Shown in pieces: positions 20,009 through 25,620 of a stretch of DNA of 64,000 nt. The position numbers were made by a program, and so were the translations under genes. Source of the stretch: Deltaproteobacteria bacterium (GTDB taxonomy: Bacteria > Desulfobacterota > Syntrophobacteria > Syntrophobacterales > Syntrophobacteraceae); the NCBI GenBank assembly GCA_021777755.1, contig JAJYDE010000015.1:1-64000 (forward strand), read 5' to 3'. Below the pieces are notes generated by a model, which did not search any database, was not told where the DNA came from, and worked only from the letters and a program-made list of their open reading frames with translations. How positions within the stretch are numbered: the stretch's first letter is position 1; every line of letters begins with the position of its first letter.

Positions 20009-20941
20009 ATGACCATAAAAAACGATGGACAAATACCGTACGCCGACGATGCGGGTGGCCCGACGACCGAATTGATCCGACTGATCGAACGTTGGACGAA
20101 GGAGGCTAACGCTCCCTATCAGACGGCAATAGACGGCCTTCGTTTCTCCCGCTTTACCGAACAGACCCGGCCCACTTTCTACATTCAGGAAACAGCTGTG
20201 TGCTTTGTCCTGCAGGGCCGCAAAACAGTCATGCTCGGCAAGGAATCTTATGTCTACGAAGCCGCAAGCTGCCTGGTCGCAACGGTCGAGCTCCCGGTGG
20301 CAGGATGTGTCTCACCGGAGTCTGCGGACAAGCCCTATTTGGGAATCGTTTTGAACGTAAACTCAAAGGACCTGGCCGCGCTTATAATAGAAACCGGCAA
20401 ACAGTCGTCACGCCGGGATGAAAACGCATCGCAGCCATTATCGATCACCAGAATCACGTCCACATTGGCCGATCCTTTGCTTCGGCTCGTCAAACTTTTG
20501 GATGCTCCGGCCGACATTGCGGTTATGGCTCCAATGATTAAGCGCGAGATCAATTTCCGGCTTCTTCAAACCGAACAGTTCGCTCTTCTTTCTCAAGCCG
20601 TCGTAGGCGACGGCAAATTGGGCCGTGTCGCGCATGCGATTTCCTGGCTCAAGGAAAATCTGACTTTGACGTTTCGGATTGAAGAACTTGCGGGGCAAGT
20701 ACATATGAGTCCGTCGAGCCTGCATCATCAGTTTAAGGAAGTGACCACCTTAAGCCCCGTGCAGTTTCAAAAGATGCTGCGTTTGCAGAAAGCGCGGCAG
20801 ATGATGATGACCGATAAGACCAGCGCCGAAAAAATTGCCTACCTCGTCGGCTATGAAAGCCCATCCCAATTCAATCGCGAATATAAGAGGCTGTTTGGAG
20901 AGCCGCCCAAACGCGACGCCAACAGGATCAGAGGACAGTAG
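20009..20941 (+). CDS. AraC-family transcriptional regulator
   Basis: 310 residues: an N-terminal AraC_N cupin-like domain (PTFYIQETAVCFVLQGRKTV, GCVSPESADKPYLG) and a C-terminal double helix-turn-helix (EELAGQVHMSPSSLHHQFKE and KIAYLVGYESPSQFNREYKR, ending RLFGEPPKRDA). The ATG at 20009 marks where the similarity begins; the frame is open far upstream only because it runs antisense to the aldo/keto reductase. It is divergent from the AKR/cupin/ADH genes, as YqhC is from yqhD-dkgA, so it probably activates them under aldehyde stress. Confidence 0.88.
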   Translation: MTIKNDGQIPYADDAGGPTTELIRLIERWTKEANAPYQTAIDGLRFSRFTEQTRPTFYIQETAVCFVLQGRKTVMLGKESYVYEAASCLVATVELPVAGCVSPESADKPYLGIVLNVNSKDLAALIIETGKQSSRRDENASQPLSITRITSTLADPLLRLVKLLDAPADIAVMAPMIKREINFRLLQTEQFALLSQAVVGDGKLGRVAHAISWLKENLTLTFRIEELAGQVHMSPSSLHHQFKEVTTLSPVQFQKMLRLQKARQMMMTDKTSAEKIAYLVGYESPSQFNREYKRLFGEPPKRDANRIRGQ

Positions 20942-21109
20942 TTCGAGGTTTGCCACGGGCGAATCCTCACCGGCAAACCTCAGGCTCTCGCCTTGACCTC
21001 AGATTGAAGTATTCTCCAAATTTTAGTTTCGCTCCGATGCCTTATGTATTTGGAGCCTCCCCTCGCTCTTCAAGCCGAGCGGGCAAGAAGATTATTTTCA
21101 TTATATGTC

Positions 21110-21140
21110 TTGACTCCGTAGTTAGGTACGGCCCTTAAAA
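21110..21140 (+). promoter_or_regulatory. mer-type promoter/operator
   Basis: TTGACT (-35) at 21110-21115 is followed by the dyad CCGTAG-TTAG-GTACGG (21116-21131) and a -10 of TTAAAA/TAAAAT with a 19-20 base spacer. This is the long-spacer geometry and the CCGTAC..GTACGG dyad used by MerR to twist mer promoters open; one inner base differs. It drives merR itself. Confidence 0.85.
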
Positions 21141-21163
21141 TATCAAGAAAGAGGGAAGGAGCG

Positions 21164-21616
21164 ATGGAATCGCTGACAATCGGAAAGATCGCCCGGCGCG
21201 CCGAGGTCGGGATCGAGACTATCCGTTTTTACCAACGCGAAGGGTTGATTGACGAACCGCCCCGGCGGGAGTCGGGGTACAGGCAGTATCCCGAAGAAAC
21301 CGTTTCACGGCTTCTCTTTATCAAGCGCGCCAAGGAGATCGGTTTCACCCTGAGGGAGATCAAGGAACTCTTGGAGCTGCAGATCGCTTCGCCCTCAACT
21401 TCTACTTGCGACGAGGTTCGAAAGCTGGCCGAAGAAAAAATCGCGGATATCCGCAGCAAGACAGAGATGCTTCGGCGCATGGAGGCGGCTCTCGTAGAAC
21501 TGGTGGACAGCTGTCGCGGGCGTGTGGTCGCCAATAGCTGCCCCATACTGGATGTGCTCCAAGAGGAGAAACCGGATGGAGCAAAGGAAATCGAATCAAA
21601 TCCATCCGATAAATAG
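21164..21616 (+). CDS. merR: MerR, mercury-responsive transcriptional regulator
   Basis: 150 residues. N-terminal winged helix LTIGKIARRAEVGIETIRFY and the QREGLIDEPPR stretch, then a long dimer helix. The three cysteines that bind Hg(II) in the Tn501 protein (C82, C117, C126) occur at exactly those positions here (TSTCDEV, VDSCRGR, NSCPIL). The regulator thus looks fully functional. It is preceded by a mer-type operator and a GGAAGGA ribosome site. The merA-like gene it should control is destroyed just downstream. Confidence 0.95.
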   Translation: MESLTIGKIARRAEVGIETIRFYQREGLIDEPPRRESGYRQYPEETVSRLLFIKRAKEIGFTLREIKELLELQIASPSTSTCDEVRKLAEEKIADIRSKTEMLRRMEAALVELVDSCRGRVVANSCPILDVLQEEKPDGAKEIESNPSDK

Positions 21617-21651
21617 GGCTGGAGCCGGAAAAGAGTGTTGCGCGGTGCCAG

Positions 21652-21870
21652 GCATGAAGGCCTTCACGATCAAAAAGCCATGCAAGGTCATGCTCCCGAT
21701 CATTACCGTCTTCGTGCTCGCGTTCCTGCCGAATTACTCGGGGTTTTCACGCCAAGCTTCAGGACTTTATCGATCTGATCCATGTTTATTCGACAATGGC
21801 CGAAGCGCTAAAAATCGCCGCCATCTCGCGCTACAAGGGCCCCTGGAAGCTCTCTTGTTGCCCCGATTGA
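21652..21870 (+). pseudogene. merA: Mercuric reductase gene with large internal deletion
   Basis: The start at 21652 gives a basic then hydrophobic N terminus (MKAFTIKKPCKVMLPIITVF), which drifts out of meaning near 21740. In the next frame the end of a MerA-type reductase appears: KLQDFIDLIHVYSTMAEALK, then ISRYKGPWKLSCCPD and TGA at 21868. LSCC plus two residues is the vicinal cysteine C terminus that delivers Hg(II) to the MerA active site. About 400 or more residues with the FAD and NADPH domains are missing, so a deletion fused the two ends with a frame change. Confidence 0.8.
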
Positions 21871-21904
21871 AGGAAGCGGAATAAGGAATTTGTGGGAGAA
21901 GCCA

Positions 21905-22141
21905 ATGGAAGACCTGATTTGTTCCTGTTTCAATTACACCGCCTTGGATATCGAGAGGGATGTCCTGCAAAACGGCAGATCCACCATCATGGATAAAATT
22001 GTATCCGAAAAGAAGGCCGTGGGATGTCAGTGCGCCCTCAAAAACCTTAAAGGTCGCTGATGCCTCGCCGACGTCCGCCAGGTGGTGGAAAACACCATGA
22101 GACGCAACGGGATCGCCTCGGGGATTCTTGACCAATCTTAG
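21905..22141 (+). CDS. Small BFD/CopZ-like [2Fe-2S] selenoprotein
   Basis: 78 residues if TGA at codon 52 (22058-22060) is read as selenocysteine. Before it: MEDLICSCFNYTALDIERDV and VGCQCALKNLKGR; after it, CLADVRQVVENTMRR to TAG. In related [2Fe-2S] domains of the BFD/CopZ group the motif is NPxGRCCLGDV, so the TGA replaces the first cysteine of the CC pair that ligates the cluster. Similarity continues smoothly across the TGA. A SECIS-like hairpin follows and GGGAGAA precedes the ATG. Its place behind merR and the broken merA suggests a role in metal (mercury or copper) handling. Confidence 0.82.
22058..22089 (+). promoter_or_regulatory. Selenocysteine UGA codon and SECIS-like hairpin
   Basis: After TGA (22058-22060) come 13 bases, then TCCGCC (22074-22079), loop AGGT (22080-22083) and GGTGGA (22084-22089), a six-pair stem with one G-T pair. 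The loop begins 19 nt after the TGA and has G at its second position, as in the fdhF SECIS loop of E. coli (AGGUCU). Confidence 0.72.
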
Positions 22142-22489
22142 GGCTGCCGGTCAGGGGGATGTTGCGCGGGTTCCCTGCCCGCCACCATGGGCGTTTGCCA
22201 ATCCCAAGCGTGCCATTTTTCCCGTTTCGTGAGCTGACACCATGAATCCCGCGCCCCCGCCCCTGAGGAGATGCATCGGGAAAATCTCCTTTTCTTCAGA
22301 AGGACCTGATCACCGAAATTCGATTGTTCATGAATCCTCAACGGCCGGGGAAAAGACCATGGGCTTTGAAAAACTGTCCAGCCGGCACCGAGAGACAGCC
22401 CGCCCGAATCGCAGATGAACAGGGTATTTTCAGTATTTTCAGCAAATTAGCACCCCAACATTTTTCAATAATAAATTCGAACGGTTGAC
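22142..22489. other. Gene debris between the selenoprotein and the sigma remnant
   Basis: No intact gene. A short frame at 22360-22418 starts MGFEKLSSRHRETARPNRR, reminiscent of a region-4/HTH opening but stops at once. The last 80 bases are AT-rich. Confidence 0.35.
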
Positions 22490-22879
22490 TTGGCGCAACG
22501 AAAGGATCAGCGTCTCAATAACCGGGAGGTCTCCCTGGACAGCCCGCTAAAGGAGGACACGGAGGACACCTGCCTGTCCTTTTTGCCTTCCGAGGAGCGG
22601 CCCGTCGATGATCAGTTGGCCGACCGGGAGGCCAAGGCGATCATTTACGGCAAGCTGCGCCACTTTCGAGCCCAACTGGAAGGCAAGGACGCGGTGATAT
22701 TCGACAGCAGGCTTCTGGCCGAAGCACCTGTAACGCCGCGGGAGATCGGGGGCAAACTCGGGGTTAGCCGGGAGCGGGTGCGCCAGATCGAAAGCCGCCT
22801 TAAAAAAAGGCTCAAGGATTACCTGGAGGAGGAAATCGAGCAGATGGACCTTCTTCAGGAAAGCATCGTTTCGGTCTAG
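22490..22879 (+). pseudogene. Truncated sigma-32-like factor (region 4 only)
   Basis: 129 codons from TTG. The product contains REVSLDSPLKEDTEDTCLSF, then VTPREIGGKLGVSRERVRQI and ESRLKKRLKDYLEE, the region 3-4 half of an RpoH-type sigma factor. The conserved REVSLDSPL lies at residue 12, so the core-binding and -10-binding region 2 is missing. A strong terminator follows at once, so the 3' end is original and the 5' half has been lost. It might survive as a DNA-binding fragment, but a remnant is likelier. Confidence 0.75.
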
Positions 22880-23643: not shown

Positions 23644-25620
23644 ATGTCGGTTGCCATGACGGATCGGATGTACTCGTTTAGGGATTGCCTGGGTCCGATA
23701 CTGGAGGACATGCGGGATGTGATCTTGTCGCAACAGTCGGAGGACGGAAGCTGGCGCTATCCGCTTGAGGGCACGGTACTGGCAAATGCTTACCTCATCA
23801 TGGTGGAGGCTCTTTTCCCCCCCGGGGATAAAACCCTTGTCGAAGGTCTTGCGCGATCGATAGAGGGTCGTCAACTTCCCAATGGCGGCTTTGGTCTATT
23901 TCCCGAACATTGCGGCGATTTCAGCACGACACTGGAGGCCTATGTCGCCTTGCGGCTGGCCGGGCGCACCCCGAGCGCCGAAGCGATTGCGAGGGCGGAA
24001 AAGTTTCTTCTGGCGACCCGCCACGAGAGCAATCTATCAAATTTAACGCGGGTAACGCTGGCCATCCTGGGTGTCATCCCCTGGTCGTCCGTACCGGTTC
24101 TGCCCCCCGAAATCATGTTGCTCTCGGGCAGAGCGCCTTTGAGCATTTATGATCTGGCAAGCTTTACGCGGGTGCATATGCCTGCCATCATGCTCCTTGC
24201 GGCCATGAATGTCGGATGCGGGTTTCGCCTCGCCTCGGAAATAAAGGCTCTTCTTTCGCCACACCATTTTCGCTCAACCCGAAGCATTCACCCCGGCCTT
24301 GGCCGGTTGGAGCGGCTTGCAAGGCCCCTGGGGAAAGGTTTGGCCGTTTTCAGCCGGGCAACGGGGGCAAGAAGACGCTCCATGGAGTTGTGCCGCCTTT
24401 TCATTCTGGAGCGGATGGAAGAGGACGGCACACTCGGAAGCTACTTGTTGTCAACTATATTTTCGATGTTTGCGCTTTCCCTGCTTGGCAGGCCGGAGGA
24501 TGCGCAAGCGGTGCGGTCCATGAAGGCGGGTCTTCGAGGCTTCACAGTGGAGCAAGACGGCGAGTTGCACATGCAGCCGTGTACGTCAACGGTCTGGGAC
24601 ACCGCGTTAAATGTCTTGGCTTTGCGGCAACTGGGAATTCCGGACACGGAGCCCTCGGTTGCCAGGGCGGGCGAGTGGCTTTTGGATCGCGAGATTACAG
24701 TCTTTCCGGACCTGAGGCAGCATTCGCCCGGAATTGGAGGCAGCGCCTGGGGATTTCAGGCCGTCAACCGCTTCTACCCCGATGTTGACGATACCTGCGC
24801 GGTCCTCTCGGCGCTAAGAGACTTCAAGGGGCGGTTGGGGCCAAGGGCGAACCAGGCTTTTTCCAGGGGAGTCGGCTGGGTCTTGGCGATGCAAAATCGT
24901 GACGGGGGCTTTAGCGCTTTCGACGTGAACAACTCCAAGCAATTTCTCGAGCGACTGCCCTTTAATGATATGGGCCGCGCGATGATAGACCCGAGTTCGG
25001 CGGACATGACGGGGCGCACGGTGATGTTTCTGAGCGATCTCGATGATGCGCGGACCGCCGTATCGGTACGAAGGGGCCTTGGCTGGCTCGACTCCCACCA
25101 GGAAAAAGACGGATCGTGGTGGGGGCGCTGGGGGATCAGCTTCATTTACGGAACTTGGGCGGCTCTTATCGGTTACGGGGCGGCCGGGGTGAATCAACAT
25201 GACCGCGGGGCCGTGCGGCGAGGATGTGTGTGGCTACGTTCGGTGCAAAACGGTGACGGGGGATGGGGGGAATCCTGCGCTTCGGATCTTGCGGGGTCTT
25301 TCATAGCCCGGTCCGAGAGCACGCCTTCACAGACCGCCTGGGCGCTGGAGGGTCTTCTGGCCTCGGGGACAAGCCTGCGGGAAGGGGCGATAAGGCGCGG
25401 GATGGAGTTTTTGATCGAACGTTACCGCAGGGGAAAGGGCTGGGAGGAAAATTATCCGACGGGGGCGGGATTTGCCGGAAAACTTTACCTCATTTACCAC
25501 AACTACGGAAACCTGTGGCCGACAATGGCCCTTTTACGGGCAAGCCGCATGCTGGGAATACGTTTATCGCCACCCGGGGCCGAGCAACAAACACGCATAG
25601 GTCGATGCGCAGCCCTGTAA
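23644..25620 (+). CDS. Squalene-hopene cyclase-type terpene cyclase
   Basis: 658 residues, close to the usual 630-650. The catalytic acid motif DVDDTC lies at 380-385, matching DxDDTA of squalene-hopene cyclases (374-379 in Alicyclobacillus). QW repeats occur as QSEDGSW, QNRDGGFSAF, QEKDGSWWGRWGISFIYGTW and QNGDGGWGESC. The N-terminal part (LEGTVLANAYLIMVEALF, GDFSTTLEAYVALRLAG) recalls the Bacillus sporulenol/tetraprenyl-curcumene type more than proteobacterial Shc; that comparison is from memory. It would cyclise squalene or a similar C30-C35 polyprene at the membrane. The HpnP-like gene begins 70 bases downstream. Confidence 0.88.
   Translation: MSVAMTDRMYSFRDCLGPILEDMRDVILSQQSEDGSWRYPLEGTVLANAYLIMVEALFPPGDKTLVEGLARSIEGRQLPNGGFGLFPEHCGDFSTTLEAYVALRLAGRTPSAEAIARAEKFLLATRHESNLSNLTRVTLAILGVIPWSSVPVLPPEIMLLSGRAPLSIYDLASFTRVHMPAIMLLAAMNVGCGFRLASEIKALLSPHHFRSTRSIHPGLGRLERLARPLGKGLAVFSRATGARRRSMELCRLFILERMEEDGTLGSYLLSTIFSMFALSLLGRPEDAQAVRSMKAGLRGFTVEQDGELHMQPCTSTVWDTALNVLALRQLGIPDTEPSVARAGEWLLDREITVFPDLRQHSPGIGGSAWGFQAVNRFYPDVDDTCAVLSALRDFKGRLGPRANQAFSRGVGWVLAMQNRDGGFSAFDVNNSKQFLERLPFNDMGRAMIDPSSADMTGRTVMFLSDLDDARTAVSVRRGLGWLDSHQEKDGSWWGRWGISFIYGTWAALIGYGAAGVNQHDRGAVRRGCVWLRSVQNGDGGWGESCASDLAGSFIARSESTPSQTAWALEGLLASGTSLREGAIRRGMEFLIERYRRGKGWEENYPTGAGFAGKLYLIYHNYGNLWPTMALLRASRMLGIRLSPPGAEQQTRIGRCAAL

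Follow-up and report, generated by a model that had tools for sequence, protein, structure and literature searches.

Behind a merR-family regulator gene in the window, by which we mean the entire 64,000-nucleotide stretch analyzed here, lies a short open reading frame containing an in-frame TGA codon. This raises the question of whether the codon terminates a 51-residue protein or encodes selenocysteine (Sec) and, in the latter case, what a small selenoprotein might do in such a place. An earlier note, made from the DNA letters, had proposed a small Fe-S selenoprotein of the BFD/CopZ type, embedded in a mercury-resistance locus and serving soft-metal binding. The gene and its immediate signals are:

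21905 to 22141, forward strand: predicted CopZ/Bfd-like selenoprotein gene, 78 residues with Sec52; conserved C6, C8, C41, C43, Sec52 and C53
22058 to 22060, forward strand: in-frame TGA at codon 52, predicted to be decoded as selenocysteine; 71 of 75 homologous loci carry TGA here and three a Cys codon
21894 to 21898, forward strand: Shine-Dalgarno-like GGGAG, 6 nt 5' of the ATG, by direct reading of the sequence

A conserved TGA codon in a genome with selenocysteine machinery

Translated with TGA as Sec, the frame reads MEDLICSCFNYTALDIERDVLQNGRSTIMDKIVSEKKAVGCQCALKNLKGRUCLADVRQVVENTMRRNGIASGILDQS, in which the motif GRUC opens the conserved end GR-U-CLADV. The earlier note had read the frame in the same way, and this reading is borne out by the translation and by the conservation of the TGA. 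Homologs were collected from 56 genomes of the class and 395 genomes of the phylum, and the codon aligned with the Sec site was read in 75 distinct homologous loci. The note had suggested looking for UC and CC versions of the motif; across the phylum the UC version, with TGA, is found in 71/75 loci and a Cys codon in three (TGC in L132, TGT in L133 and TGC in the distant L134), the remaining locus having CGA. Cys is also present at the Sec-aligned site of plasmid and CopZ homologs. The CGA locus (L080, G000:C1:2194-2409, outside the window) belongs to the same genome, which thus carries the gene twice; here TGA is replaced by CGA (Arg), one Cys is lost and an early TAG is found, so that this copy is apparently a decayed paralog of the window gene. 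L076 (6007-6225) and L075 (around 844-1017) are two more copies, divergent or frameshifted (CDG in place of CYC; frame disrupted past the Sec region), and are possibly decaying as well.

Two findings had been named as arguments against selenocysteine, namely homologs ending at the TGA and a genome lacking Sec machinery. Neither was observed. In an alignment of 61 protein sequences, no variation is seen at C6, C8, C43, the Sec site or C53, and 60/61 sequences have C41. Pairwise identity averages 0.535 over residues 6-51, ahead of the TGA, and is no lower beyond it, at 0.592 over residues 53-64. The codon survey, the invariant C53 and the identity beyond the TGA thus indicate that homologs do not end at this codon. 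The genome from which the window derives encodes a tRNA-Sec (74 bits; ARAGORN anticodon TCA) together with SelA (605 bits), SelB (358 bits) and SelD (373 bits), and its SelD gene itself contains one TGA. It should be noted that each of the 64 genomes tested has a SelB above the cut-off, the three genomes carrying Cys forms among them, and its presence can therefore not separate Sec carriers from Cys carriers.

A covarying SECIS-like hairpin downstream of the TGA

A six-pair hairpin with loop AGGT had been described downstream of the TGA, and it was confirmed at the following position:

22073 to 22090, forward strand: SECIS-like hairpin, core stem 22074-22079 / 22084-22089, loop AGGT 22080-22083

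The core stem (TCCGCC/GGTGGA at 22074-22089) begins 13 nt after the TGA and the loop 19 nt after it, so that the distance of 19 nt originally given for the start of the hairpin holds for the loop and not for the stem. The outermost pair of the family's hairpin, 22073-22090, is lost in the window, with G-A where the family has G-C. As set out in a recent review (PMC13188914), bacterial SECIS elements are constrained to a loop of 3-9 nt with a G in the first two loop positions, a stem of 4-16 bp, a UGA-to-loop spacing of 16-37 nt and a minimum free energy of at most -7.5. The window hairpin falls within all four of these limits (loop AGGT of 4 nt at 19 nt, stem of 6 bp, -9.1 kcal/mol). An Rfam scan of positions 20900-22600 returned no match.

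When the window sequence was recoded synonymously 20,000 times, 472 of the variants formed as many pairs at the hairpin site, which makes the hairpin of this single sequence suggestive and the family decisive. Covariation was analyzed on 69 aligned sequences, the irregular copies L075 and L076 being excluded. The seven-pair helix consists of standard pairs in 91.6% of cases, with compensatory changes on both sides in 5/7 pairs. The covariation signal exceeds that of all 500 shuffles on each of five measures, and it collapses when the hairpin alignment is slid. A G is found in the first two loop positions in 69/69 sequences, and the core five pairs are kept in 68/69. In one covarying case, seen in L086, L094, L095 and L122, a silent change in codon 57 is coupled with an Asp-to-Asn change in codon 62. 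Taken together, we consider the family almost certainly to be a family of selenoproteins; by its sequence the window gene is one of its members, with Sec predicted in the product.

Relationship to CopZ and Bfd

The assignment of the protein to BFD/CopZ-like domains, made originally from its motif, agrees with several lines of comparison. Against the NCBIfam model CopZ_Nterm_CC (NF047645), annotated as a putative iron-sulfur cluster-binding metallochaperone, the window protein scores 41.2 bits, below the cut-off of 100; the match covers the C-terminal half of the model, and this half is matched by 61/61 aligned family members. The N-terminal half of that family, about 80 residues long, is lacking in the window protein, and at the Sec site the family has a Cys pair. 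Pfam Fer2_BFD yields 17.3 bits, below the gathering threshold of 26, and matches 29/61 members at E <= 0.001. The sole significant sequence match in the PDB is the N-terminal domain of Archaeoglobus fulgidus CopZ (2hu9), where C6, C8, C43, U52 and C53 align with CopZ C75, C77, C109, C118 and C119, respectively. Sec therefore occupies the first of two adjacent Cys positions of CopZ-type proteins, as had been proposed. In comparison with A. fulgidus CopZ, the window protein has Sec at the C118 site and an extra Cys, C41, unmatched in the alignment, and lacks both the N-terminal region and the copper-binding domain.

The AlphaFold model of the window protein (pLDDT 87.4, pTM 0.77) has Bfd (4e6k) as its best match among solved structures (Z 6.0, rmsd 2.3 over 53 residues in VIA-align), the next unrelated row in this comparison having a Z of 2.4. 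A direct Foldseek search of the model gave weak E-values, the best being 0.98, also to Bfd, so the predicted Bfd fold draws on the second look with VIA-align. CopZ was absent from the Foldseek and VIA-align match lists of the predicted model. The model nevertheless suggests a Bfd-type fold shared with the A. fulgidus CopZ N-terminal domain (2hu9) and bacterial Bfd (4e6k, 6e6r).

Related selenoproteins have been predicted before. Two reviews (PMC9312934, 2022; PMC13188914, 2026) list a "(2Fe-2S)-binding protein (copper chaperone CopZ family) form 1" as a predicted selenoprotein (cd10141, example WP_245779778.1), given as a prediction without function, and the latter review assigns it the motif GxUC. 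The domain type is shared and GRUC in the window fits this motif, so that the window gene, by motif and domain, very likely belongs to this group. CopZ_Nterm_CU (NF045877; Csac_0668 family 2Fe-2S cluster-binding (seleno)protein) has the same C-terminal domain and is likewise a selenoprotein family, but its name puts Sec second in the pair (CU), whereas the window protein has it first (UC); the window protein scores 16.4 bits against this model, below the cut-off of 190. The name of a third family, MerT_CopZ_Se (NF045683; MerT/CopZ fusion-like heavy metal transport selenoprotein), connects mercury transport to a selenodomain of the CopZ-like type; the window protein, in contrast, is stand-alone and does not match the model at E <= 1. 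Given the listed form 1 and the MerT/CopZ selenoprotein in NCBIfam, the protein type itself is already known. The consulted portions of the two reviews do not mention a mer or ars linkage for form 1. As far as the available literature shows, what is added here is the family-wide SECIS covariation, the mer/ars linkage and the fusions with MerA and MerT.

Arsenic and mercury genes in the neighborhoods of relatives

Genes within 6 kb of 71 loci were compared with those in 40 control stretches centered on SelB. An ArsP_1-type permease is found at 19 of the 71 loci, ArsR at 17 and ArsC at 12, each being absent from all 40 controls. Any core ars or mer gene occurs near 24/71 loci versus 0/40 controls; this count is partly circular because these very loci supplied the reference proteins, although the proteins were named via Pfam and NCBIfam. 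Roughly two thirds of the 71 loci lack a core ars or mer neighbor, and linkage may therefore capture just a part of what the family does.

Six loci have a mer context: the window, L009 and L093 (both with MerA), L128, L129 and L131. The gene order in L128 and L129 is MerR-MerB-MerT-MerP-selenoprotein, no MerA being seen within the fetched stretch, while L131 has an SO_0444 exporter, MerR, MerT, a MerP-like protein and the selenoprotein gene, in this order. On the gene tree, which is poorly resolved, the mer label requires four changes. The exporter gene of L131 (3688-4761), located upstream of merR, merT, merP and the selenoprotein gene, encodes a Cu/Zn efflux transporter of the SO_0444 family (418 bits when its TGA is translated as Cys). 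This TGA lies in frame within a Cys-Gly-TGA linker, so that the mer-like cluster probably encodes two selenoproteins.

Cys-type relatives also occur with mercury genes, in some cases fused to their products. In genome G110, a single open frame behind MerT combines a Cys-type CopZ/Bfd domain with MerA (L133, 4530-6560). On plasmid CP036351.1, a frame annotated as mercuric reductase (L182, 3689-4924) reads not as MerA but as a triple fusion of CopZ-N, MerT and a MerP-like part, the MerT and MerP parts being assigned by eye. Cys-type plasmid homologs adjoin merR, merB, merT and merF. Mercury genes (merA, merB, MerT, MerF, a mercury-annotated merR, or a fusion) were found in 8 of 14 inspected plasmid neighborhoods, with a MerR-family regulator directly upstream in two others and ArsR or metal-transporter genes in three.

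The soft-metal theme of the original proposal is thus supported by gene linkage and by the Cys-type fusions, whereas mercury as the main association is not, with ars-type permeases at 19 loci and mer contexts at six. A purely mercury-specific role for the whole family was rejected, since the ars-type context is the commoner one and most loci have neither.

A possible role of the Sec-Cys pair

We hypothesize that the family represents CopZ/Bfd-like selenoproteins whose Sec-Cys pair binds soft metal(loid)s in order to deliver them to a partner or to assist in their reduction. As a whole, this statement appears to us rather probable; for the metal hand-over role taken by itself, our judgment is evenly divided. 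The Sec machinery of the cell, guided by the downstream hairpin, would decode UGA 52 as selenocysteine, giving a 78-residue product with a predicted Bfd/CopZ-N fold. This product would offer six soft ligands, i.e. two CxC pairs (C6xC8 and C41xC43) and the vicinal Sec-Cys (U52C53), and the alignment suggests that a [2Fe-2S] cluster is most likely held by four Cys, as in CopZ and Bfd. The Sec-Cys pair, possibly together with C41, may then capture a soft metal(loid), presumably Hg(II) in mer loci, while in ars loci the same site would take As(III) or related species. The captured metal(loid) would be passed to a reductase or exporter (MerA; an ArsP_1/SO_0444-type permease), with electron donation also being possible. 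According to a review, CopZ-type selenoproteins come in two forms, GxUC and CU, with Sec first or second in the pair. That either member can be Sec fits a Sec-Cys pair working as a unit.

The main rival to metal hand-over is a [2Fe-2S] electron-transfer selenoprotein, in which Sec would tune or ligate the cluster and electrons would go to a metal(loid) or disulfide reductase without any metal being carried. The Bfd fold of the predicted model is consistent with such a role, as are the Cu(II) reduction mediated by the Fe-S domain of A. fulgidus CopZ (PMC7558416), the flavin reductase-like gene immediately upstream in L120, L124 and L125, and the many loci outside resistance operons. However, the fusion of Cys-type domains to MerT-MerP and MerA points to metal hand-over, and the existence of GxUC and CU forms, as listed in a review, suggests that the pair matters and not one cluster ligand. 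On balance, we regard pure electron transfer as unlikely, though clearly worth consideration.

A broader version of metal hand-over is speculative, and we think it improbable: Sec-Cys beside a [2Fe-2S] cluster might be a general device for soft metal(loid) hand-over, swapped between the Hg and As operons of anaerobes, which in mer operons with no MerA seen (MerR-MerB-MerT-MerP-selenoprotein) would do part of the mercuric reductase role.

The reduced mer locus of the window

The selenoprotein gene of the window follows merR and would stand under a MerR-type operator, in a locus mostly stripped of merA:

21110 to 21140, forward strand: MerR-type operator/promoter, with TTGACT, the dyad CCGTA-N6-TACGG, a spacer of about 19 nt, and TTAAAA
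21164 to 21616, forward strand: merR-family regulator gene, 150 aa (TIGR02051 MerR, Pfam MerR_1 and MerR-DNA-bind)
21745 to 21870, forward strand: merA 3' remnant, last 41 codons plus stop, sharing 90% identity with the C-terminal end of MerA from Desulfoferrobacter suflitae

The operator sequence upstream of merR is TTGACTCCGTAGTTAGGTACGG, at 21110. When 1.6 Mb of sequence from the fetched loci was scanned for the operator pattern, it was found only in the window and upstream of merR in L128, L129 and L131. The best NCBIfam match of the regulator is TIGR02051, with 138.3 bits slightly below the cut-off of 150.85. In D. suflitae, a MerA that passes TIGR02053 is encoded immediately upstream of the selenoprotein gene. 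Between merR and the selenoprotein gene of the window only the last 41 codons of merA are left, and no MerA over the cut-off was found across the whole genome, so that the locus is best described as a reduced mer locus. Its description as a mercury-resistance locus is accordingly right for the intact merR behind a MerR-type operator and does not hold for merA.

Farther downstream, a short frame at 22490-22879 resembles region 4, the C-terminal part, of a sigma-70-type factor, the rest of which is absent. Next to a squalene-hopene cyclase gene (23644-25620, 492 bits) come a radical-SAM-like gene and, on the other strand, a gene for a large MMPL-like transporter; this region looks like a hopanoid cluster.

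At three conserved positions the window protein differs from its family (Y7S, G39V and P48L), and these changes, together with the position behind a merA remnant, mean that this copy may be decaying. The family being real, the window gene could then be a dying relic of a decayed mer locus that no longer works, which would also fit the lost outer hairpin pair and the paralog L080, which is already broken. Nevertheless, the gene retains its five Cys, its TGA and its core hairpin, and the ribosome-binding site, merR and the operator are intact as well; we regard a relic as unlikely, though worth consideration. That the TGA is a true stop, with downstream similarity being incidental, can be dismissed as extremely improbable even though a 51-residue product would keep four Cys, given that protein conservation is higher downstream than upstream, that 71 loci have TGA where other homologs have Cys, and that covariation ties a synonymous change to an Asp-to-Asn change.

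Implications

Standard gene calling stops the protein of 21905-22141 at its UGA, and many annotations therefore probably lack this small selenoprotein, widespread in sulfate-reducing and syntrophic bacteria, or show it in truncated form. The occurrence of its gene in mer and ars loci, together with the Cys-form fusions to MerA and MerT-MerP, suggests a testable link between selenium and the handling of mercury and arsenic in anaerobes.
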